NCBI GenBank assembly: GCA_947455285.1
Contig: CANGOK010000002.1
Span: 1-41,846 of the forward strand
DNA: 41,846 nucleotides
Origin: Beijerinckiaceae bacterium
GTDB lineage: Bacteria; Pseudomonadota; Alphaproteobacteria; Rhizobiales; Beijerinckiaceae
Direction of reading: 5' to 3'
Shown: piece by piece, positions 12,386-24,507 of the stretch
Numbering within the stretch: the stretch's first letter is position 1
Layout of the letters: each line of letters opens with the position of its first letter
Notes under the pieces: model-generated
What the model was told of the DNA's origin: nothing
Databases searched by the model: none
What the model saw: the letters and a program-made list of their open reading frames with translations, nothing else
Position numbers and translations under genes: made by a program

Positions 12386-13864
12386 TTAATGCACGCCTGA
12401 CAAATGCGAACGAGGACTACCATCAGAAATGGCGGCAGAAACCGCCTCAACTAAACTTTCTTGTGCATTCGCCTTTGCAAGAAGCGAGATACCCCCCGCC
12501 CTCGCAATATCACACCTATCCTTTTCACCAAGCGCACATCCAACCAGTATAATTGGCAAACCCCGCTGAACGCCTCGCAAGGACCGCACCAACTCAGGCA
12601 GGTCGATGTGCGGTGCAGAACATGCATCCATATCAATCACGCCCACATCAAACGGCGTCCCAGCGGCTGCGAGCCTCGAGGCCTGAGGATCCTGAACGCG
12701 GCAGATGATATGCCCTGCTCTCGCCAGAGCCAGCGTTAGACCGGGGCTACCAATTTCGTTGCCTTCAATGAGAAGCACGTGGGCGCCCGCGCCAACTTGG
12801 GCGTCCGCGTTCCAGCCATGAGACTGTGGAGCCTGATTATTGATTTGCACCGTTTTGAACGGGTTCGTCCAGTGATCCCCTGCGCTGACGGCGCTTTCAC
12901 CTACGCTCGCCAAGGGCGCTCTTTGTCCTCGCTTCTGATCTACTTCCCGCAAAGTATTAGGCCCATCATCAAAAGGATTCGTTTGAGGAAGAGCGATCTC
13001 ATCAACACTTCTCACTGAGATTTGCGGGTTTACTCTATCGACATCAGCCAAAGCACCCAAATCAGCCTCAACTTGAGGAGCTATGGCAGAGGGCGTCGGG
13101 CCTCGACGGATTAACGATGCAATTTGGCGCCATGACGTTTCTGAAGTTATTGCAAACACCGCTTCACAAAGGTCGGCATGATCCGGACTTAATGCGATGA
13201 CTGGGCGATGACCCTTATCGGCGGAAGCAGCCAACTTTTTCGCCTCACTCATTCCATGACGTTCGAGCAAAATGATAAGATCGGCATCTTGCGGGCTGAC
13301 CATATCGAAGCATAGTTTCAGGGCTTTTTCCTGATCCATTGTTGGTTTGGGACAGGCAAACACTCTGGGCCGCGTTTGCAGGCCCAAGCGTCTCCAATGC
13401 GCTTTTGATAGATCGCGCGCAGCATGCGGCGCTTCCGTACGATTGAGCCCATCGCCCTGTGGTGGCAACCCAGCAGCCATCGCCATAGGCCTAATGTCGG
13501 CGGCGGCTATTGCATCGAGCAGTGCCCCCGAGCGAAGGGGTTTCGACAGAATAGCTTTGAAAACCCCTCCGCACACCGCACTCACCGCAAGCGCATAGCG
13601 ATGCTCCACCAAGCCTATCAGCGATGGCGAGGGGGCCTGCCCGCGCACGCCATCCGCATTCAGCAAACTCCCAAGAAAGCTACTCCCCATAACGGCAAGG
13701 CTAAGATCCATTATCACGGTGTCGAAAGGGGACCTCCGCGACCGCTCAACCGCTTGGGCGCCGTTTGCTGCCAAATCAACCTGATGTCCCTGGGCGCAGA
13801 GAAGCCGCCATATGGCGTCTCTTTGAACAGAATCGCTTTCGACCACTAGAATACGCTGGTGCAT
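12386..13864 (-). CDS. Multi-receiver (REC-like) protein at end of cellulose operon
   Basis: 492 aa, no membrane segment or output domain. The N-terminal receiver (about 1-120) has RILVVESDS (acidic pair E9/D11), IMDLSLAVMG (phosphoacceptor D53) and the ILSKPL Lys-Pro pair. A middle block (about 165-252: RVFACPKPTMD, DADLIILLERHG, HRPVIALSPDHAD) looks like a degenerate receiver. The C-terminal block (about 359-480) repeats the fold: HVLLIEGNE, FDVGVIDMDA, LPIILVGCAL, SLLAKAN. The linker carries two TNPF motifs. The gene follows the TPR gene by 41 bp. It may relay a kinase or c-di-GMP-linked signal to the cellulose machinery, which is inference. No named family was recognised beyond REC. Confidence 0.75.
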   Translation of the reverse strand: MHQRILVVESDSVQRDAIWRLLCAQGHQVDLAANGAQAVERSRRSPFDTVIMDLSLAVMGSSFLGSLLNADGVRGQAPSPSLIGLVEHRYALAVSAVCGGVFKAILSKPLRSGALLDAIAAADIRPMAMAAGLPPQGDGLNRTEAPHAARDLSKAHWRRLGLQTRPRVFACPKPTMDQEKALKLCFDMVSPQDADLIILLERHGMSEAKKLAASADKGHRPVIALSPDHADLCEAVFAITSETSWRQIASLIRRGPTPSAIAPQVEADLGALADVDRVNPQISVRSVDEIALPQTNPFDDGPNTLREVDQKRGQRAPLASVGESAVSAGDHWTNPFKTVQINNQAPQSHGWNADAQVGAGAHVLLIEGNEIGSPGLTLALARAGHIICRVQDPQASRLAAAGTPFDVGVIDMDACSAPHIDLPELVRSLRGVQRGLPIILVGCALGEKDRCDIARAGGISLLAKANAQESLVEAVSAAISDGSPRSHLSGVH

Positions 13865-13905: not shown

Positions 13906-15732
13906 TCAGCGCTTTAAGCGCAGAGCGACCGCCTGGGCGCCGATGGCGTCGGCGCTGTATGTCAGCATCCCGCTGGCACCTGCAGCGGATGATGAATGTC
14001 GAGAAGCTTGTGAAGCGATCGTCCCCTGCGCCGGCGCGCTATCGACGGAAGGCGCGGCGCTTGGAACGCTTTCGCCGTTCCAGCCTGGAGAAAGTTTCAG
14101 GTCAGGCCGCTCATAGGGCATGGCCACCACGCCCGACACACGTCGTGCGTTGAGGGGTCTATGCTCGGGCCCTTGAGGGCGCGCTACAATCGACTTCAGT
14201 TTTAAGTCTGTGGATTCAGGAAAGCGCAGGGGGTTCTCCGCCGCTACAGAAATCGGGAAGTCCTTTGCCTGTAACGACTGACTTGAAACAGCCATCTTAT
14301 TATAAAAATGGCTTGGCTGTGGCACTAACATCATTGATGCCTTTCCCTTCAGGCTGACGATCTCCAAGCGCGGCTGCTCACGCTTATCAGGTCCATTGCA
14401 AGCGCCGCCAAGGGCTTCGCTCCCATCCTTGAAAACCAAACCAACCACAGTCGGGAACAATCCATCGTAGCGGTTGACTAGTTCCGAGAATTCCTTTTGC
14501 TTCTTTAATCGTTGCAAACTGACCGCTTGACCAAGGATCGTCGTTTCCCTCGGCAGCCATGCGCTTGCGCGTCGGAACCAGTCGAGAGCCGTTGCAAATT
14601 GGCAGGACTTATAGGCGTACCAGCCGAGCGCCTGTGCGCCTTCACCAGAGCGCGCTTCCAAGGTGACCTTGACGTAGCGCAGCAACCTGTTGGGCTCGAT
14701 GGGTTGCATGGTCGCTTTGGTAAGTTGCGAATCGAACATATCGATGAAGAGGATCATGTTCGCCGTGACAGTGTCGCGCGAGTTGAAGGCAACATCTTCG
14801 GCCTCGCGCAGCTTGCCAAGCCGCCAAAGCGTCTGCGCCAGACCGTGTGCGCTGATGGGATCGGCCCCCCGCGCACGCGCTGCCTGAAACCATTTCAGCG
14901 CAGAGTCCAGCCTGTTTTCGTGCAAGGCGAGCCAAGCCAGAAGCTCCACCGCGCCTCCCTCTTTCGAGGTCTCGGCATAGGTTTCGAACTCTGTAAGTTG
15001 CGCGGCGTCTATGGGGTCGTTCCGTTCGCCCTGCAGTATGGCCGCGATACGACCGCGCGTGAGATCGTTCGCGAGTTCCGAGAATTCGGCAGCTTCGGTG
15101 GCCGTTTTTCGGCCGATATCAAGCAATTGTTCCACATCCGCCATGGGTAAGGCGCCAAGCGCTTTCAAAATAGTGACGCGGCGCTCCTTTAGATCCGTGC
15201 TGCGTTGTAGGAGGCGCGAGAATATCGACCGCGCCTCAACCTTTCGATCGCAGCGCGCATAAGCCTCCGCGATGGACCAGGAAAGCGCTGCATCATCGGC
15301 GAAGCCGCCTGTCAGACGCTCGCTTGCGAGATCGCAGACTGCGAACCATTGCGCCTTCGCGGCCTTGCTCAAGATCTGATCGCGCACCTCCTTTCGCTTG
15401 ATCTTCCGTAGCAGATCATCGGATGGCCGCCAGCCCGGCTCCACAGTCTGGCGTTGGGCGATCGCGCGCTTAAGCCCGCCCAGATCGTCCGCTGCATACA
15501 ATTCCCAGAGCGGCTCCTCGTCGCCCATGGGCAGGCGCGCCGACCAGATATCTTCGGGCATGGACCAGCCGGGAAAAAGACCCGACAAGCGCCGCGCTTC
15601 GGCCTCGACACGCAGCGTCTGGCCCTGGGCCGCATAATATCGCAAGGCGGTCTCATCGATCTCTTGGGCCTGTGCGCAGGACACGGAGCCGCAGCCCAGA
15701 ACAAAGGCCAGCAGACTCGCCCGTAAAGACAT
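13906..15732 (-). CDS. Periplasmic TPR protein of the cellulose operon (BcsC-TPR-like role?)
   Basis: 608 aa from the ATG at 15732, which overlaps the bcsZ stop by one base (TGATG); the track uses a GTG at 15747. A signal peptide is clear (MSLRASLLAFVLGCGSVSCAQAQ). The body is helical with TPR-like pairs, for example LLAWLALHENRLDSALKWFQAARARGADPISAHGLAQTLWRLGKLREAED and ALGWYAYKSCQFATALDWFRRASAWLP (cited in parts). The last 150 residues are Pro/Ser/Ala rich and disordered. There is no beta-barrel, so it is not a full BcsC. In other systems the BcsC TPR region spans the periplasm and contacts the BcsAB-BcsZ machinery. The same scaffold role is inferred here. Confidence 0.75.
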   Translation of the reverse strand: MSLRASLLAFVLGCGSVSCAQAQEIDETALRYYAAQGQTLRVEAEARRLSGLFPGWSMPEDIWSARLPMGDEEPLWELYAADDLGGLKRAIAQRQTVEPGWRPSDDLLRKIKRKEVRDQILSKAAKAQWFAVCDLASERLTGGFADDAALSWSIAEAYARCDRKVEARSIFSRLLQRSTDLKERRVTILKALGALPMADVEQLLDIGRKTATEAAEFSELANDLTRGRIAAILQGERNDPIDAAQLTEFETYAETSKEGGAVELLAWLALHENRLDSALKWFQAARARGADPISAHGLAQTLWRLGKLREAEDVAFNSRDTVTANMILFIDMFDSQLTKATMQPIEPNRLLRYVKVTLEARSGEGAQALGWYAYKSCQFATALDWFRRASAWLPRETTILGQAVSLQRLKKQKEFSELVNRYDGLFPTVVGLVFKDGSEALGGACNGPDKREQPRLEIVSLKGKASMMLVPQPSHFYNKMAVSSQSLQAKDFPISVAAENPLRFPESTDLKLKSIVARPQGPEHRPLNARRVSGVVAMPYERPDLKLSPGWNGESVPSAAPSVDSAPAQGTIASQASRHSSSAAGASGMLTYSADAIGAQAVALRLKR

Positions 15733-16847
15733 CAATCTTTCAGGCACGACGGATACCTCATCCTGGCGGCGGTCAAGGATAGTAAGTGCAATGTCACTGG
15801 ATAATAATGATCAAGCGATTGCACCGAGCGGAGTTGGCTCGGAAACAAAGCGCCTTTCATGGCGCATGCGCTCAATGCCGGTATGCTTTCGTAACTGGCT
15901 TCCTCGATCCATTCAGAGACCTGGCCCTTAGCCAGATCGACGAGCGGGAAACCGCGCGGCCCACGCTTGCCCCAGATCTGCAGAAAACCGGAATGGTGTC
16001 GCGGCTGGTCGAAACCCGCCCAGGCCAGATAGAGGGGAATGCGGATGGCATTATAGGAGAACTGCGCCGCGAATCCCGCCGCTGGCTGCGGCTGGCCGGA
16101 TGTGAGCGTCACCCAATCGCTTGGTAATTTGGCGGGGCCAAATTGCGAATTGTAAATCAGACGCAGGCCCGTCGTGACAAGACTGTTCCAATCGAACTCC
16201 GGCGCGACAAGCGGCAGGCGCGCAAAGGCGGGAAAGATATAATATGAAAGGTTCAGGACAGGCCCGTCCGCGCGATCTTCTGTTGCGAACCCGCTTGCGC
16301 CCGGCAGCAGCAAAGATCCCATCGGCGTATTGAACAGCACCAGTTTGCGACCGATGTCGAGTGCCATGCGCCGCGCAGCGACACGGTAGCTTGGATCAGG
16401 CCAGGCGACCGCCGCTTCAACCAAAGCCCAGGCGATCAGAATATCACCATCGGACGCATTATTGACGTCGGCTACGGCGGGCCTTTTGTCTGGCTCCCAA
16501 CGCCACGCGGCCAGTTCATCATTGCGGATGAACAGGTTCGCTCTTGTCCAGCCCCAGATACGTTCAAAGCTGGCCCGGTCGTCAGCGGCGACGGCGAGCA
16601 GCATGCCGTAACCCTGCCCTTCGCTATGGCTGACAAGGCCGTTGGCAGTATCCACCACCCTGCCCTGCGCTGTCACGAAACGCGCCTTGTAGGCGCGCCA
16701 AGCATCCTTCTGCTGCAACATGCCATGCAACGCTACATCTCCGCTCACGGCTTCGGCGACAGCGCTGCCGGTCAAGATCAATATGGCGAAAGCCAAGGCG
16801 ACAAGACCGCGCATTGCTTGCGCTTTGTAATAGCGATATCCGGTCAT
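15732..16847 (-). CDS. bcsZ: Endoglucanase, glycoside hydrolase family 8 (BcsZ)
   Basis: 371 aa with an N-terminal hydrophobic export segment (GLVALAFAILILTGSAVAEA). The GH8 core has VSHSEGQGYGML with the general acid E76, NNASDGDILIAWAL with D133, and aromatic substrate-groove residues such as ERIWGW and WRWEPD. BcsZ cuts beta-1,4-glucan in the periplasm and is needed for proper cellulose export. The ATG at 16847 overlaps the bcsB stop (ATGA), implying coupling. Length fits the family (about 340-370 aa). Confidence 0.93.
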   Translation of the reverse strand: MTGYRYYKAQAMRGLVALAFAILILTGSAVAEAVSGDVALHGMLQQKDAWRAYKARFVTAQGRVVDTANGLVSHSEGQGYGMLLAVAADDRASFERIWGWTRANLFIRNDELAAWRWEPDKRPAVADVNNASDGDILIAWALVEAAVAWPDPSYRVAARRMALDIGRKLVLFNTPMGSLLLPGASGFATEDRADGPVLNLSYYIFPAFARLPLVAPEFDWNSLVTTGLRLIYNSQFGPAKLPSDWVTLTSGQPQPAAGFAAQFSYNAIRIPLYLAWAGFDQPRHHSGFLQIWGKRGPRGFPLVDLAKGQVSEWIEEASYESIPALSACAMKGALFPSQLRSVQSLDHYYPVTLHLLSLTAARMRYPSCLKD

Positions 16848-19210
16848 TCAACCCTCCGGCCGGCGTTCAGGACCAGCCACAGCGTGGACGCAGCCAGACA
16901 TAGAACCAGACCAATGCAAGCAGCCACATAAGCGGCGGGGTTCAGAGAGAGCCACGCCGCGCCGATCAGGCGCAGATTGCCAAGGCTCCACGAGGTGGGC
17001 GCGTAGAAACGCCGCCCCTCGTCATCACGAACCGATAGGACCGTTTCGTTCACTTGCAACGCGCTCAGGCGGCCGCTGACGGTGGCCCAGATGCGCGGAT
17101 GGGTGAGACAATCGACGCCAGCCTTTAACGAGGCGGCGTCAGGCGCGGTGACGAGGGTCCAGAGATTGCGAGAATCTGCCGCGGGAAAGCCCTGGCTCAT
17201 GGTGAGCACGGATGCTTGCGACAGCGCGCCCGCTTCCGACGCGCGTACCTCTTGCGCGTTCGATTGGCGAAAAAACAAGGTCGGCATATTGAACTGCTTC
17301 TCGAAGCTGGCGGGGGAGAGGGACGGGGCGGACGGCGCGCCTCTGGCTTCAACCTTGGCGGCGGCTGGCTCGGCGCCCGGCAGATCGCAATGGCGCTTCG
17401 AGCCCAGCGCAACGGGCCGCGCGCCGTTGCTGACTGGCTTTTTTGGCTCGTTGCGCCAGACGAGGTGCACACGCTCGGGATCAAGCCCGGCTGCTTGCAT
17501 CAATTGGGGATCGAGCGTCGGCGCCGGAGAAACCATCAGCACATCTCCCGCATCAAGGGCGGGCGCCGTCATCGTGAAGGTGAAATCGACCGGGCGGCGG
17601 TCTGCGACGGCGATGCGCGCAGCAAGGGTCGCCGCCGCCGACATGGTGGCGCGATCAGGATTGGGGACAAACAGGATCGGCCGCGCGCCCTCTTGCGCGA
17701 AGGGAAAGCCCCCCGCCGCTGTCATTGCCAGATCAGGCGCGCGCGCCACCCTGGCGACTTTCGGCAAAGTGAGCTCGCTACGGTCAAGAAGATGCAGTCG
17801 GTTTGATTCGACGCTTCCGCCATGCGGACAGGCGGTATCTCCCGCCGTAGGCAGTTCAGCCGTAATATCGATTCGGTTTACGCCCGGCCGCATCAAGGCC
17901 AGCGGCAGGAACATGCGGTTCAAAGAAAGATCGCGGGCGCCGCTGCGGGCGAGGGGCTGCATGGCTGCGTCGGCGCCATTGATGGAGACCAGAATGCGCG
18001 CGTCCCGATCAAGCGCGTCGCTGTAGGAGCCCCCGAGTTGCAGCGTTATGCGGTCATAATCGGCGCTCATGAAATCCATGGGCATCGCCACATTCAGACC
18101 CACGCGCAAATGCCTGCCAGAGAAAACCGCGCCGCCAAACCCGGCTTCGCTGATCGCCATAGTTTCCCGCTCGCCGCTGGCCTCGCGCCCCGCTTGCCGC
18201 ATGGCCGCGCGTAAGCCGGGCTCCGCGCCGCGCAGTTTTGGTGTCTGCGCCTCTAGCGCCAGTCGGTCGAGCGCCCGATCGAGATCGGCGGCTCCAAGGC
18301 CAGTGATGACAAATGTAGGGGCGCGGCTGGGCCGCTCTGGCAGAAATCCATAACGAGGACCAGTTACGGAGCCAAAGTCGGCGAAATCGGGAAGTGCGCG
18401 CAGTTCCTCAAGCGTACCCACGGCGAGATCGAGCCCCGAGCCATCAGTCCCTGCCGAGCCAAACTCCACCAGCGGCTGCAATGACCCGCTGTTCACTGCA
18501 ACGATCTGGCTCGCTCTGATGGCGCGGCCCGCCATGTCAGGCGTCAGCTTGCCGGACATAAGGATGCGGATCACGGAGGCGCCATCGCCTCGCGGTGCGA
18601 TCGCGGCCATATCCGCCACACGCTCCATCCCCGTTGCACGCCGTTCGCCTGCGAAGACAAACCCCGTCTGTTCCGGCCGGATCTCAGTCAGCAGTTCGTA
18701 CGTCGCAGCCAGCGTGCAATCGACCCGGTGGCGCTGCTGCGCCTTCAGGCGGATGGCGTTGAAACCGGGCTTCAACACGCCCTTCGGTAGATCAAAGCCA
18801 AGTTTTGAAAAGCCGCTCGTCGCTCCGAGCCGCTGACGGCCGACGACTGTGTCATTGACGCTGAGCGTCAGGCCTGACGCCTCCGGGAGGACGGAGATGG
18901 AGGATTGAGCGATAACCTGAAAGCTCGCGGCGTCCCTCGCTTGTGCGTCGGTCAAATAGACCGGCCATTCCCTTTCGTCCCACTCGCCGTCGAAGCGGAA
19001 ATCCTTCAAGCCTACTGGCAATCGGCGGATATCCTTGCGTTCGGCGCGGACCGAGACTGCGTCTGTCGCTTTGCCAAGACCCGCGAAAACCGGGATCCGC
19101 GCTCCAGCCGGCGCGACTGGGGTCCAAGCCGGCGTGTCGGTCTGCGCCAAAGCGGGTGCTGCGCAAAGAGCCAGCACGAGGCCTGTGAAACGCTTGGAGA
19201 ACATTCGCAT
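16844..19210 (-). CDS. bcsB: Cellulose synthase regulatory subunit BcsB
   Basis: The track start (19561) lies inside bcsA. The ATG at 19210 is 4 nt after the bcsA stop and begins a signal peptide (MRMFSKRFTGLVLALCAAPALAQ), giving 788 aa. The periplasmic part shows repeated carbohydrate-binding/flavodoxin-like modules: FQVIAQSSISVLPEASGLTL, GFNAIRLKAQQRHRVDC and FVITGLGAADLDRALDRL (cited in part). A C-terminal membrane helix (YVAACIGLVLCLAASTLWLVL) anchors it to BcsA. BcsB guides the nascent glucan across the periplasm and is required for BcsA activity. Gene order bcsA-bcsB-bcsZ supports the call. Confidence 0.93.
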   Translation of the reverse strand: MRMFSKRFTGLVLALCAAPALAQTDTPAWTPVAPAGARIPVFAGLGKATDAVSVRAERKDIRRLPVGLKDFRFDGEWDEREWPVYLTDAQARDAASFQVIAQSSISVLPEASGLTLSVNDTVVGRQRLGATSGFSKLGFDLPKGVLKPGFNAIRLKAQQRHRVDCTLAATYELLTEIRPEQTGFVFAGERRATGMERVADMAAIAPRGDGASVIRILMSGKLTPDMAGRAIRASQIVAVNSGSLQPLVEFGSAGTDGSGLDLAVGTLEELRALPDFADFGSVTGPRYGFLPERPSRAPTFVITGLGAADLDRALDRLALEAQTPKLRGAEPGLRAAMRQAGREASGERETMAISEAGFGGAVFSGRHLRVGLNVAMPMDFMSADYDRITLQLGGSYSDALDRDARILVSINGADAAMQPLARSGARDLSLNRMFLPLALMRPGVNRIDITAELPTAGDTACPHGGSVESNRLHLLDRSELTLPKVARVARAPDLAMTAAGGFPFAQEGARPILFVPNPDRATMSAAATLAARIAVADRRPVDFTFTMTAPALDAGDVLMVSPAPTLDPQLMQAAGLDPERVHLVWRNEPKKPVSNGARPVALGSKRHCDLPGAEPAAAKVEARGAPSAPSLSPASFEKQFNMPTLFFRQSNAQEVRASEAGALSQASVLTMSQGFPAADSRNLWTLVTAPDAASLKAGVDCLTHPRIWATVSGRLSALQVNETVLSVRDDEGRRFYAPTSWSLGNLRLIGAAWLSLNPAAYVAACIGLVLCLAASTLWLVLNAGRRVE

Positions 19211-19214
19211 GCGC

Positions 19215-21572
19215 TTACTCGGCCCCCTGCATGAAGGGCCCAGCATCTGAATTGGCGTTAGCAAAGCCTCCTCGAATGGGAACGCCTGATAGCTCGGCGA
19301 TGGCGGCCAGCCAGGAGGCCTCGTTGATCTCGCCCGCCGATGGAATTGTTTGAGCGCTTGCGGGAGTACCGCTCGCGCCCATGCCCTCAGAGGTCGCCGG
19401 GCTTTCGGCGGACCGTAGATCAGGCCTCTTGCGGAACGCCAGAACGAGCGCGCGGAAAGGCTCGGTGATGCCCCAAATCGCGAACTGGAGCGAGCCGCGC
19501 AACAGGCCGATGGGTTTGTGACGGCGCGAAAGAAACCGACTGATCGCCTCTGTATCCCCATACATCAGCTCGGCGACCGTCTGGTAGTTTTGGGGCCGCA
19601 GATCATCGAACACGAGCTCCAAGCCAGCGCCCGAGGCTTTCGTGCAGCGCACGGCGACTTGCCCATGGGGCGCGCCCCCATGGGCGGGAATAACCGTAAG
19701 CCAACCGGTGGCGGCTTCATCCACATTCGATGGAAGGTTCTGGGGGCCGAGCGAAGCGACGCCACAGTCGGACGCGGACACATAGTTGATCCGGACTCGA
19801 ACCTCCTCGTCTCCCAGAGTAAGGAGTCCAGTGCGGCTGATCGCAAGGCGCGGGTTCCGCTCTGCCTGGCGCCTTTCCGCGACCACGCCAAGAGCGACCC
19901 CAGCCACGATCAGGTTAAAGCAGCTCCAGATGCCGACCACCTGCATCGTTCCGGCGACGCCGGGTTCGTTGACATAGCGCCACGCCGCCGTCCCAGTAGC
20001 CACAATAAGGAATAGAAAAATAGCAACGAAAGGCCAGGCAAGGTCAGAGAGATGATCATGCTCCAGCGACACACCCTTAGAGGTGACGTTGAAAGTGGGC
20101 TTGCGCGGCGACAGGGCGACGGAACCGAGGGCCTTGATCAGGAAGACCCCCTGCACATACTCGTAAAGCTCCGACATCAAGGGCCAGCGGACATGCCCAT
20201 ATACATAGCTCTGCATCAGCATGTTCACGCTCATGTAGGACAGCGTGTAGGCCAAGGTCTCATCGAGGCTCGATACGAATATCTTGATGTCGAAAAAGAT
20301 ATGAAGCAGCGGCGCGATCATGAAAACGCAACGCGGAATCGGGAAGAACCAGAAGGCCATGCTAGACAAATAAGCGATGCGCTGGATCGGCTTTAGCCCC
20401 GCAAGCCGCATGGGATTCTTCAGTAGAAAAATCTGGAACATCCCCTGACACCACCGCGAGCGCTGCCCGATGAAACTCGAGAACGTCTCGGGTTGCAGGC
20501 CCGCGATGAGCGGCTTGTCCACATAAATACTCGTCCAGCCTTGCGAATGCAGCGCAAGCGCGGTCTCGCAATCCTCGGTGATGGTGATTCCCGAAAAACC
20601 GCCGGCGCTCGCCAGCGCCGCGCGCCGCAGCAACGCGGCCGAGCCACAGAAAAACGAGCCGTTCCATTTATCGAGGCCGCATTGCGTGACGCCGTAAAAC
20701 ATTTCGTTTTCCGACGGCATGCGCTCGAATGTGCGCAGGTTCCTCTCGATGGGATCGGGATTAAGGAACACATGGGGCGTCTGCACAAGAAAAAGCTTCG
20801 GATCCTGACTAAAATAGCCGACGGTCTCCCGCAGGAACCTGCGGAAGGGTGCGTGGTCAGCATCGAACACGACGACCACTTCGCCCGTGGAATGAACCAG
20901 TCCGTTGTTCAGATTGCCGGCCTTGGCATGTTCATTTCGAGCGCGTGTCAGATAGGTGGCGCCAAGCTCGCGACACAGGCCCTGCAGGGATAGGCGCCGA
21001 CGGTAGGCCGCAGCGGCCTTGACCGGGTCCTTGTCGGCGCATTTCTGGTCCGTGCCGCCATCGTCCAGGAGCCATACCTTTAGTTTCTCGGAGGGATAAT
21101 CCATGCCTTTGGCGGCGCAGATCGTCATCGCCAGAATGCTCTCGTCCTCATTGTAGCTGGGAATCAAGACGTCGACGGTCGGCAGTTTGGCGTCGTCTTC
21201 GCGCGGCAGCGATTTGCGGCGTAGGGGATCGACATTGATCAAAAGACTGATCGCCATGATGAACGCGCAAAACATCTCGGCGGCGAGCACGATGCAGCCG
21301 AAGCTGAAGCCCGCCACATCCGAAACCGGCGGGAGCGTGCTGGACAGACGCCAATATAGATAACGAAGCAGCACAGTACTCCCGAGCGCGAGAAAGAGCT
21401 GCTGCACCCAACTCCATCGCGGCAGGAACGAGAAGACGATAAGGCCGCAGACGGCGGTGGCGCTCAGGGCCGTCTGGGCCTGAACGCTGACCGGGTGGGT
21501 CAGGAGAAGAAGCATCATCGACCCGAAGAGGCCCCAGCAGACCCACCTCAGGCGGTGCAAGAGGCCGCTCAA
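19215..21572 (-). CDS. bcsA: Cellulose synthase catalytic subunit BcsA
   Basis: 785 aa GT2 synthase in the inner membrane making beta-1,4-glucan from UDP-glucose. Motifs: DD in LLDDGG (170-171), DxD in FDADH (237-239), TED (332-334), QRSRW (370-374) and gating loop FNVTSKG (494-500). About eight membrane helices surround the GT domain. The C-terminal PilZ region is atypical. Where c-di-GMP-binding BcsA has RxxxR, this reads ERRQAERNPR, so the first Arg aligns with E571. Where DxSxxG is expected it reads SASDCG (S599 in place of Asp). The start is a TTG at 21572 in a TTGA overlap with the bcsS stop; a later start at the SMMLLLL methionine is possible. Confidence 0.95.
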   Translation of the reverse strand: MSGLLHRLRWVCWGLFGSMMLLLLTHPVSVQAQTALSATAVCGLIVFSFLPRWSWVQQLFLALGSTVLLRYLYWRLSSTLPPVSDVAGFSFGCIVLAAEMFCAFIMAISLLINVDPLRRKSLPREDDAKLPTVDVLIPSYNEDESILAMTICAAKGMDYPSEKLKVWLLDDGGTDQKCADKDPVKAAAAYRRRLSLQGLCRELGATYLTRARNEHAKAGNLNNGLVHSTGEVVVVFDADHAPFRRFLRETVGYFSQDPKLFLVQTPHVFLNPDPIERNLRTFERMPSENEMFYGVTQCGLDKWNGSFFCGSAALLRRAALASAGGFSGITITEDCETALALHSQGWTSIYVDKPLIAGLQPETFSSFIGQRSRWCQGMFQIFLLKNPMRLAGLKPIQRIAYLSSMAFWFFPIPRCVFMIAPLLHIFFDIKIFVSSLDETLAYTLSYMSVNMLMQSYVYGHVRWPLMSELYEYVQGVFLIKALGSVALSPRKPTFNVTSKGVSLEHDHLSDLAWPFVAIFLFLIVATGTAAWRYVNEPGVAGTMQVVGIWSCFNLIVAGVALGVVAERRQAERNPRLAISRTGLLTLGDEEVRVRINYVSASDCGVASLGPQNLPSNVDEAATGWLTVIPAHGGAPHGQVAVRCTKASGAGLELVFDDLRPQNYQTVAELMYGDTEAISRFLSRRHKPIGLLRGSLQFAIWGITEPFRALVLAFRKRPDLRSAESPATSEGMGASGTPASAQTIPSAGEINEASWLAAIAELSGVPIRGGFANANSDAGPFMQGAE

Positions 21573-22315
21573 AACAGCACCCGTAAATCCGCGGAGCCAT
21601 AAATACCGGACTTCTGGTCTTTGTCCTGCTGGTAACCGAAGGACAGCCCGCCCTGAACCGGCCCGAACTGCACACCTGTCAGGAAAGCGCCAACCTGCCA
21701 GAGCGCATAAGTATTGTTGCCCATGAATGCCGACTCAGGCCCCAGGTAGAAGCCTTCAGGGAGCATGTAACCAACCCTCAGACGCGTGAAGAACTGGCTG
21801 TCATTCGTCGCGAAAGCGCCAAAAGCGGAGACCATGGTCCGCTCCGAGGGACGCGCGTAATAGTCGACGGCCCCCTTAAGGCCCAGGCTCGCGCCATTCG
21901 CTGAATTTTTGGGATCGGGCCGTGAAAGCGCGGTATTGAGCGCCATGCCGCCAAGGTAAACCGCGAACTTAGAACGGGGACCAACCCACTCATAACCACC
22001 CAGGGCTGCGGCTTCGACCTGCCGGCCTCGGATCTGCAAGTTGGTTGCGGAGAGATACTCATACGTCCCCGCAAGTGCTTCCACTCGCAGCCTTGCGCCG
22101 CTGGTGGACAGGGAGCCGGGGATGGCGGCGGTCGCGCCTGCTTCCAAAAAATAGGACTTCGATGACGAGCCGGTCGTCGATGCGTCAACGCTGACGATCC
22201 AGTCATCGATGATTTTGGGCGACGGCGTCGCGGGATACCAATCGGCCGAACGGGCTGGACTGATCATCAATGCGAACAGCACGCTTTTGGATACAGAAAA
22301 ACCCACTCGCAACAT
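21569..22315 (-). CDS. bcsS: Cellulose biosynthesis protein BcsS (beta-barrel-like)
   Basis: 248 aa with a signal peptide (VLFALMISPARSA, cleavage near DW). The mature part is made of alternating amphipathic strands with aromatic girdles (AALGGYEWVGPRSKFAVYLGG, FFTRLRVGYMLPEGFYLG). It ends in ADLRVLF, a C-terminal Phe as in BAM-recognised outer-membrane proteins. BcsS is a small family found with alphaproteobacterial bcs operons; its biochemical role is not established to my knowledge. Here it is the first gene, coupled to bcsA through a TTGA overlap. It may form the outer-membrane pore in place of the missing BcsC barrel (inference). AGAGG lies upstream of the ATG. Confidence 0.75.
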   Translation of the reverse strand: MLRVGFSVSKSVLFALMISPARSADWYPATPSPKIIDDWIVSVDASTTGSSSKSYFLEAGATAAIPGSLSTSGARLRVEALAGTYEYLSATNLQIRGRQVEAAALGGYEWVGPRSKFAVYLGGMALNTALSRPDPKNSANGASLGLKGAVDYYARPSERTMVSAFGAFATNDSQFFTRLRVGYMLPEGFYLGPESAFMGNNTYALWQVGAFLTGVQFGPVQGGLSFGYQQDKDQKSGIYGSADLRVLF

Positions 22316-23196: not shown

Positions 23197-24507
23197 CTAC
23201 GCGGCGGCATTTAGCGCCGCCTCCAACAGTGCCATCACGCGTTCAAACATGACGCTGCCACGCGCCTCATCCTCGAAGCGATCCGGGTAGCCTACGATCT
23301 TGATGTCCGAGCGGCAGCGTTTGCCGGGGCCCAGAACGATCTCCGACGCCTGCGCCATGATCTCTGCAACGGCTCGGGCCTGCTCATCGATCTGGTCGAT
23401 GGGAGCCTCGAGCAGCAGAGCGTCATGGATGGGGGCACAGATCATGAAGCCCGCCTCCACCGCCATCGACAGGCCAAGGCGCATCATCGCTGCGCCATGG
23501 CTCTGCATCGGCCAGTTGAGGATGGAGCGTCCGTTGATGTCCGCGTGACAGCCCGGCGGATACTGGATGCGCCAACCGAAGACTATTTCCAGTGGCAGAC
23601 CCAGCAGCGCGCGGTCCACATTCTCCTCCGCCCAGCGCCAGAACACGCGGTAGGTATCGCGATGCAGGCGCAAGAGTTCACGGGCCCTGACGACATGGAT
23701 CCCCGACTGGGCGGCGATGCTCTCTGGCCCCATGCCGTAGTTGACCCCCAGCACGATGGCCTTACAGGCGTTCCTGATGTCGGGATGGGACTTCTTCGTA
23801 GCGTCTGGCGGAGCAAGGCCAGCCTGCTTGGCGAAGGCGATGTACGGATCGCCGCTGGGGTACGCCTCCCACAAGGCGTTGTCGCCTGAGAGCGCCCCGG
23901 CGTTGGCGATCTCCTGCGACGACCAGTCGATGTAGGCGATAGCCCTCCCCGGGGTAGGCTTGATCAGGTGGCGGATCTAGACAAAAGGACCAAAGATGAA
24001 CCGGCTGTTGGACGGCTGGTTGCGCCCGGTCTTAGCCCGGAAGGTCGACAGGAGAGTCCGGTTGCGGCCATCGGGGCCGATGGTCAACTCATTCAAGCGA
24101 AGTTGGCCAAGCGAATGGCGCAACTCCCGCAGGGGCGAGATCACCGGGTAGGCGCGCGCCTGAGTGCGTAAGGTCTCGTCATCCAAGGCGATTGCGCCCG
24201 AGGGCAAGCGCGGCCACGGGATGCCACGCGATGAGAGGAACGCTGCAAACTTGGCGACAACGAATCTGCCGTGCTCGTCGACGCCAAAGTCAGCGTCAAC
24301 GACTTCGATGAGACCGCGTTTGATAGCTGGCCAGTGCTTGACCAGCTGCATCCGAAGGCCGACGTCTACTGGAATGCCGTTGTTTTCCACAATGCCCACC
24401 GCAGCCATGTAGCGGCCCCGCAGAAGCGCCTGGGTGCATGTCGCAGCAGCACTCCATGGAGCAGGCTTGATTAGCAGGCGGATCCATAGTGCTGGTTGCG
24501 TTCGGCC
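23197..24507 (-). pseudogene. Phage-type DNA polymerase I (family A), nonsense-interrupted
   Basis: Two track ORFs (23977-24408 and 23197-23874) are one frame split by an in-frame TAG at 23977-23979. The joined reading is NSRFIFGPFV*IRHLIKP, then motif A AYIDWSSQEIANAGALSGD, the O-helix region NACKAIVLGVNYGMG and motif C PIHDALLLEAP. Homologous polymerases carry Trp at the stop position as I recall them, so TGG to TAG is the likely change. The upstream end reads QALLRGRYMAAVGIVENNGIPVD and then runs into a scrambled duplicate. The exonuclease-like N-terminus is missing. It represents the C-terminal polymerase part of a phage or plasmid enzyme, now decayed unless an amber suppressor exists. 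Confidence 0.85.
23954..24060 (-). repeat. polA segment, copy A of an internal duplication
   Basis: This part of the polymerase relic (FRAKTGRNQ...IRHLIKP) matches the shorter copy at 24461-24536. The copies share GGCTTGAT-A/C-AG and GCTGGTTGCG...CTTAGCCC, with about 30 bp present here and absent there. Confidence 0.65.

Follow-up and report, generated by a model that had tools for sequence, protein, structure and literature searches.

The window (the whole stretch of 41,846 nucleotides analysed here) carries a real cellulose operon of type III, without BcsC and variant in form, in which a gene for a predicted outer-membrane barrel, bcsS, stands directly upstream of the synthase gene bcsA. 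We propose, with a probability of roughly one half, that this operon exports cellulose by means of a separate periplasmic scaffold, BcsK, and an exit channel formed by BcsS. In our computations BcsS has a barrel fold, BcsK consists of TPRs only and no BcsC is detectable; that BcsS is the missing cellulose pore is plausible but unproven, and it is a good candidate for this role. BcsC-less operons with a TPR-only BcsK are the published architecture of type III (PMC6559018, PMC9012009, PMC11470070, PMC7112194), so the division between scaffold and barrel was already known, and the loss of BcsC has been taken to suggest a novel export mechanism (PMC7112194). What is new here is a candidate barrel partner for a known kind of operon, rather than the split itself.

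The five genes follow one another on the minus strand in the order bcsS-bcsA-bcsB-bcsZ-bcsK, as an earlier reading made from the letters alone (the sequence-only reading) had described them, and a sixth gene lies behind them:

21569..22315, minus strand: bcsS, 248 aa (PF17036, 2e-39)
19215..21572, minus strand: bcsA, cellulose synthase catalytic subunit (TIGR03030, 808 bits)
16844..19210, minus strand: bcsB, periplasmic co-catalytic subunit (PF03170, 5.3e-34)
15732..16847, minus strand: bcsZ, GH8 periplasmic endoglucanase (PF01270, 3.2e-52)
13906..15747, minus strand: bcsK, exported TPR protein (TPR profile matches, AF2 model, Foldseek, homologues)
12386..13864, minus strand: two-receiver-domain protein (Response_reg, two stretches)

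The coupled overlaps noted in that reading are present at three junctions: the TTG start of bcsA overlaps the stop of bcsS (TTGA, unchanged in two sister genomes), bcsB and bcsZ share an ATGA (the start of bcsZ being GTG in the sister genomes), and the bcsZ/bcsK junction reads TGATG. The genes bcsA and bcsB do not overlap (TAA, 4 nt, ATG). The ATG within TGATG is probably not the bcsK start actually used, since it is absent in one sister genome and a start 15 nt upstream is common to all three. No RNA family was found upstream of bcsS, and a promoter and terminator scan did no better than shuffles. A partial ORF for a family-A DNA polymerase, possibly a mobile-element remnant, lies upstream of bcsS (23197-23874, minus strand).

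Both bcsA and bcsB are present, and BcsK, a TPR protein without a barrel, takes the place of BcsC. None of the operon proteins joins TPRs and a BCSC_C barrel in one chain, as BcsC does, which bears out what the sequence-only reading had observed. The source genome, that of a Rhizobiales bacterium, is a 3.05-Mb draft, 84% complete and in 326 contigs; the closest relatives that carry a name are bins from metagenomes with the labels uncultured Rhizobiales and Beijerinckiaceae. A BcsC encoded elsewhere might have been missed in such an assembly. However, a profile search for the BcsC barrel (BCSC_C, PF05420) found it in 0 of 61 genomes, namely the source genome and 60 relatives, several of them about 100% complete, whereas the same model detected the E. 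coli control and matched five other alphaproteobacteria above cut-off; a missed BcsC is therefore extremely improbable. The bcsC elsewhere in the genome that the earlier reading had named as the finding to speak against it thus did not turn up in these searches. BcsG was not found in the genome either (E. coli control positive), the alginate-type exporter PF13372 had no match there, and no BcsD or BcsE was seen among the operon genes.

The AF2 model of BcsK shows a helical solenoid (residues 33-435) and a disordered tail (441-613), with no barrel, in agreement with the earlier description of an exported TPR protein lacking one. Its Foldseek neighbours are TPR superhelices, and the sequence gives weak matches in the PDB, mainly to designed repeat proteins. 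Homologues of BcsK were found in 18 relatives and are often longer than the protein of the window. A barrel hidden in these longer homologues was considered and rejected; their extra sequence reads as a Pro/Ala-rich linker and more helical repeat.

BcsS matches PF17036 with 135.9 bits (curated cut-off 24). To the eye its N-terminus resembles a signal peptide, and its last residue is Phe. Its AF2 model places 12 strands over residues 40-247, with moderate confidence (pLDDT 75.5, pTM 0.71; alignment of 9 sequences). The alignments used for folding BcsS were shallow because the homologue search in named genomes supplied only 8 loci, and they left out the loci from the wider genome search. The Foldseek neighbours in the PDB are outer-membrane barrels, including OmpG, autotransporter barrels and KdgM (target TM 0.65 at 4.9 A), with the polysaccharide outer-membrane secretin 4y25 lower in the list; these barrel matches are generic. 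Hydrophobic alternation along the strands, as taken from the model itself, exceeded that of all 5000 shuffles. Of the two strand faces, the more polar one, which presumably lines the lumen, has 34 conserved residues of 78, among them Arg, Asp, Tyr and Trp, and the other has 11 of 75. BcsS thus combines in silico the signal peptide, the amphipathic closed strands and the C-terminal aromatic residue of outer-membrane beta-barrels, and we predict from the model that it is a 12-stranded one. Sequence searches gave no relative of known structure, and the literature search turned up no published study of its function or structure.

These results fit the sequence-only reading, which had called BcsS small, exported, strand-rich and Phe-terminated and had expected 8-12 strands; the model reaches the top of that range. 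The structure prediction of BcsS which it had suggested as a check returned a barrel, and not the barrel-less model that would have counted against it. Its further idea that a pore could need oligomers is not supported by the 12 predicted strands. Barrels of 12 strands such as KdgM are channels as monomers, and oligomers therefore need not be invoked for BcsS.

Within the family of the source genome, the distribution of bcsS follows that of bcsA. PF17036 occurs in 15 of the 16 genomes of the same family that have bcsA (two bcsA fragments included) versus 3 of 21 without it (Fisher 1.3e-6, with shared ancestry ignored), and in the single bcsA genome without bcsS the bcsA gene lies at a contig edge. 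In every case observed on a single contig the two genes are neighbours; genome G020 has them on two different contigs. Five of the sampled alphaproteobacteria have a BcsC barrel that passes the cut-off, and BcsS was present in none of these five. No BcsS was found on plasmids.

Members of PF17036 were also seen in other surroundings. In a distant alphaproteobacterial genome of 1.5 Mb (locus L107, 8460-11475) the gene immediately after bcsS encodes a CelA-like GT2, and neither bcsB nor bcsK lies in the vicinity. At two other loci (L098, 256-3434; L102, 87-3268) a BcsS-like gene lies immediately 3' of a different membrane GT2 synthase, and these pairs suggest a second polysaccharide system that uses the BcsS barrel family. 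Orphan PF17036 genes adjoin groES/groEL-like and hisG/hisZ-like genes (L090, L091). These orphans stand well away from cellulose genes, and PF17036 is therefore not restricted to cellulose systems.

Conversely, PF17036 was found nowhere in the genome in at least nine BcsC-less genomes of other families that have BcsA and BcsK (G046, G051, G053 and G059, and G075, G093, G111, G219 and G222 of the class-wide sample). Their operons carry A-B-Z-K, with N in most, and no barrel gene beside them is apparent by eye. BcsS is therefore not a universal type III pore and would at most be a lineage-specific one; the BcsK core apparently works with another exit in these genomes, so that at least one more exit solution must exist.

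Most relatives in the family have the operon S-A-B-Z-K-N, from which the window genome and its two sister genomes depart. bcsN, common in type III operons and not treated here as required, was not found in any of the three; BcsK is shortened, and the two-receiver-domain gene sits at the position held by bcsN in relatives, following bcsK in both sister genomes. This gene is possibly co-transcribed with the operon and is the fastest-evolving of the cluster (dN/dS 0.35-0.42). The [DN]xSxxG motif of the PilZ domain of BcsA (residues about 566-615) is degraded, reading YVSASD in the window and, across the three genomes, YVSASD, HVSASA and HVSASD. Even with E values up to 5 allowed, the Pfam PilZ model gave no match to BcsA of the three genomes, but it matched in 6 of 6 relatives tested, partly below cut-off. 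This three-genome clade is thus a distinct variant. Control of its BcsA by c-di-GMP may have been lost or altered, as far as the motif tells, and our guess is that control has shifted from c-di-GMP to the receiver domains. In an alignment of BcsN (L062, L064, L072, L075, L076, L078, L109, L110, L112, L113) a lipobox-like Cys and two further Cys are invariant, a pattern that suggests a lipoprotein with a disulfide.

In the export path that we propose, BcsA and BcsB would polymerise the glucan and extrude it into the periplasm, as is established for these families. By homology, the TPR solenoid of BcsK would guide or scaffold the chain across the periplasm, as AlgK and the TPR region of BcsC do, and BcsZ would trim misplaced glucan. 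BcsS, a monomeric 12-stranded barrel of KdgM type, would be the exit channel with BcsK in this lineage, and the two together would represent an AlgK/AlgE-like split of BcsC. The division of the export path between BcsS and the TPR protein, as conceived in the earlier reading, is partly supported, by the separate genes, the failure to find BcsC, the barrel model and the association of bcsS with bcsA within the family; for the pore BcsS is a candidate, and other BcsC-less A-B-Z-K operons have no PF17036 protein in their genomes. In favour of a pore, dN/dS between the window and its sister genomes is lower for bcsS (0.105, 0.120) than for the other genes of the operon. Against it, the barrel lumen may be closed by salt bridges, and the pores of AlgE and BcsC have 18 and 16 strands versus the 12 predicted for BcsS. 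Tentatively, and with somewhat less confidence than in the export path itself, we suggest that BcsS may be the founder of a small, 12-stranded class of exit pores for polysaccharides, which as a family would stand apart from the barrels of BcsC, PgaA and AlgE. Such pores would pair either with a GT2 synthase itself or with a separate scaffold in the periplasm, and in one lineage of the alphaproteobacteria they would take the place of the barrel of BcsC.

The BcsK systems without BcsS in several families, with no barrel-like gene apparent by eye beside their operons, fit another possibility, namely that BcsS assists cellulose by anchoring, by tethering BcsK or by surface retention, and that all BcsK systems have in common, as their pore, some outer-membrane protein encoded elsewhere in the genome. 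We take this seriously while rating it rather doubtful: bcsS is tightly coupled to bcsA and strongly constrained, it is kept where bcsN is missing, and it is paired with a GT2 gene where neither bcsB nor bcsK is nearby. Alternatively, the type III lipoprotein BcsN could form or recruit the outer-membrane exit together with BcsK, BcsS being an add-on. Almost all of the BcsC-less loci examined do have bcsN along with bcsK, and the lipobox-like Cys of BcsN is invariant; however, bcsN is undetectable in the window clade, whose genes are still under purifying selection, and at locus L111, and we consider this reading unlikely.

The degraded PilZ motif, the missing bcsN and the shortened BcsK could also be signs of an operon that is decaying and exports nothing. 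Yet all reading frames are open in the three genomes, the catalytic (glycosyltransferase) motifs of BcsA are intact, and dN/dS is 0.10-0.25 for bcsS, bcsA, bcsB, bcsZ and bcsK, which indicates an operon under selection and leaves decay with very little probability. Export through BcsK and BcsS is thus the reading that we prefer, and an operon-linked barrel candidate makes the question of how cellulose exits BcsC-less alphaproteobacteria testable in one lineage.

The type III operons of Starkeya N1B, Shinella zoogloeoides and Agrobacterium likewise have the A-B-Z-K core (in Shinella N-A-B-K) and a TPR-only BcsK, with no BcsC and no BcsG found. Unlike them, the window operon has bcsS upstream of bcsA, no bcsN, a shorter BcsK, a degraded PilZ motif in BcsA and an adjacent two-receiver-domain gene. 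With the AlgK-AlgE alginate exporter it shares a TPR scaffold and an outer-membrane barrel on separate genes, although BcsS, with its 12 predicted strands, belongs to a Pfam family of its own, and AlgE, the PF13372 type for which the genome gave no match, is a barrel of 18. KdgM, a 12-strand channel that imports oligogalacturonate, resembles the BcsS model in its barrel, whereas the two proteins have about 9% identity and no detectable sequence homology. In E. coli a single polypeptide, BcsC, which combines 19 TPRs with a barrel of 16 strands (PMC11379886), does the job that we propose for BcsK and BcsS jointly.
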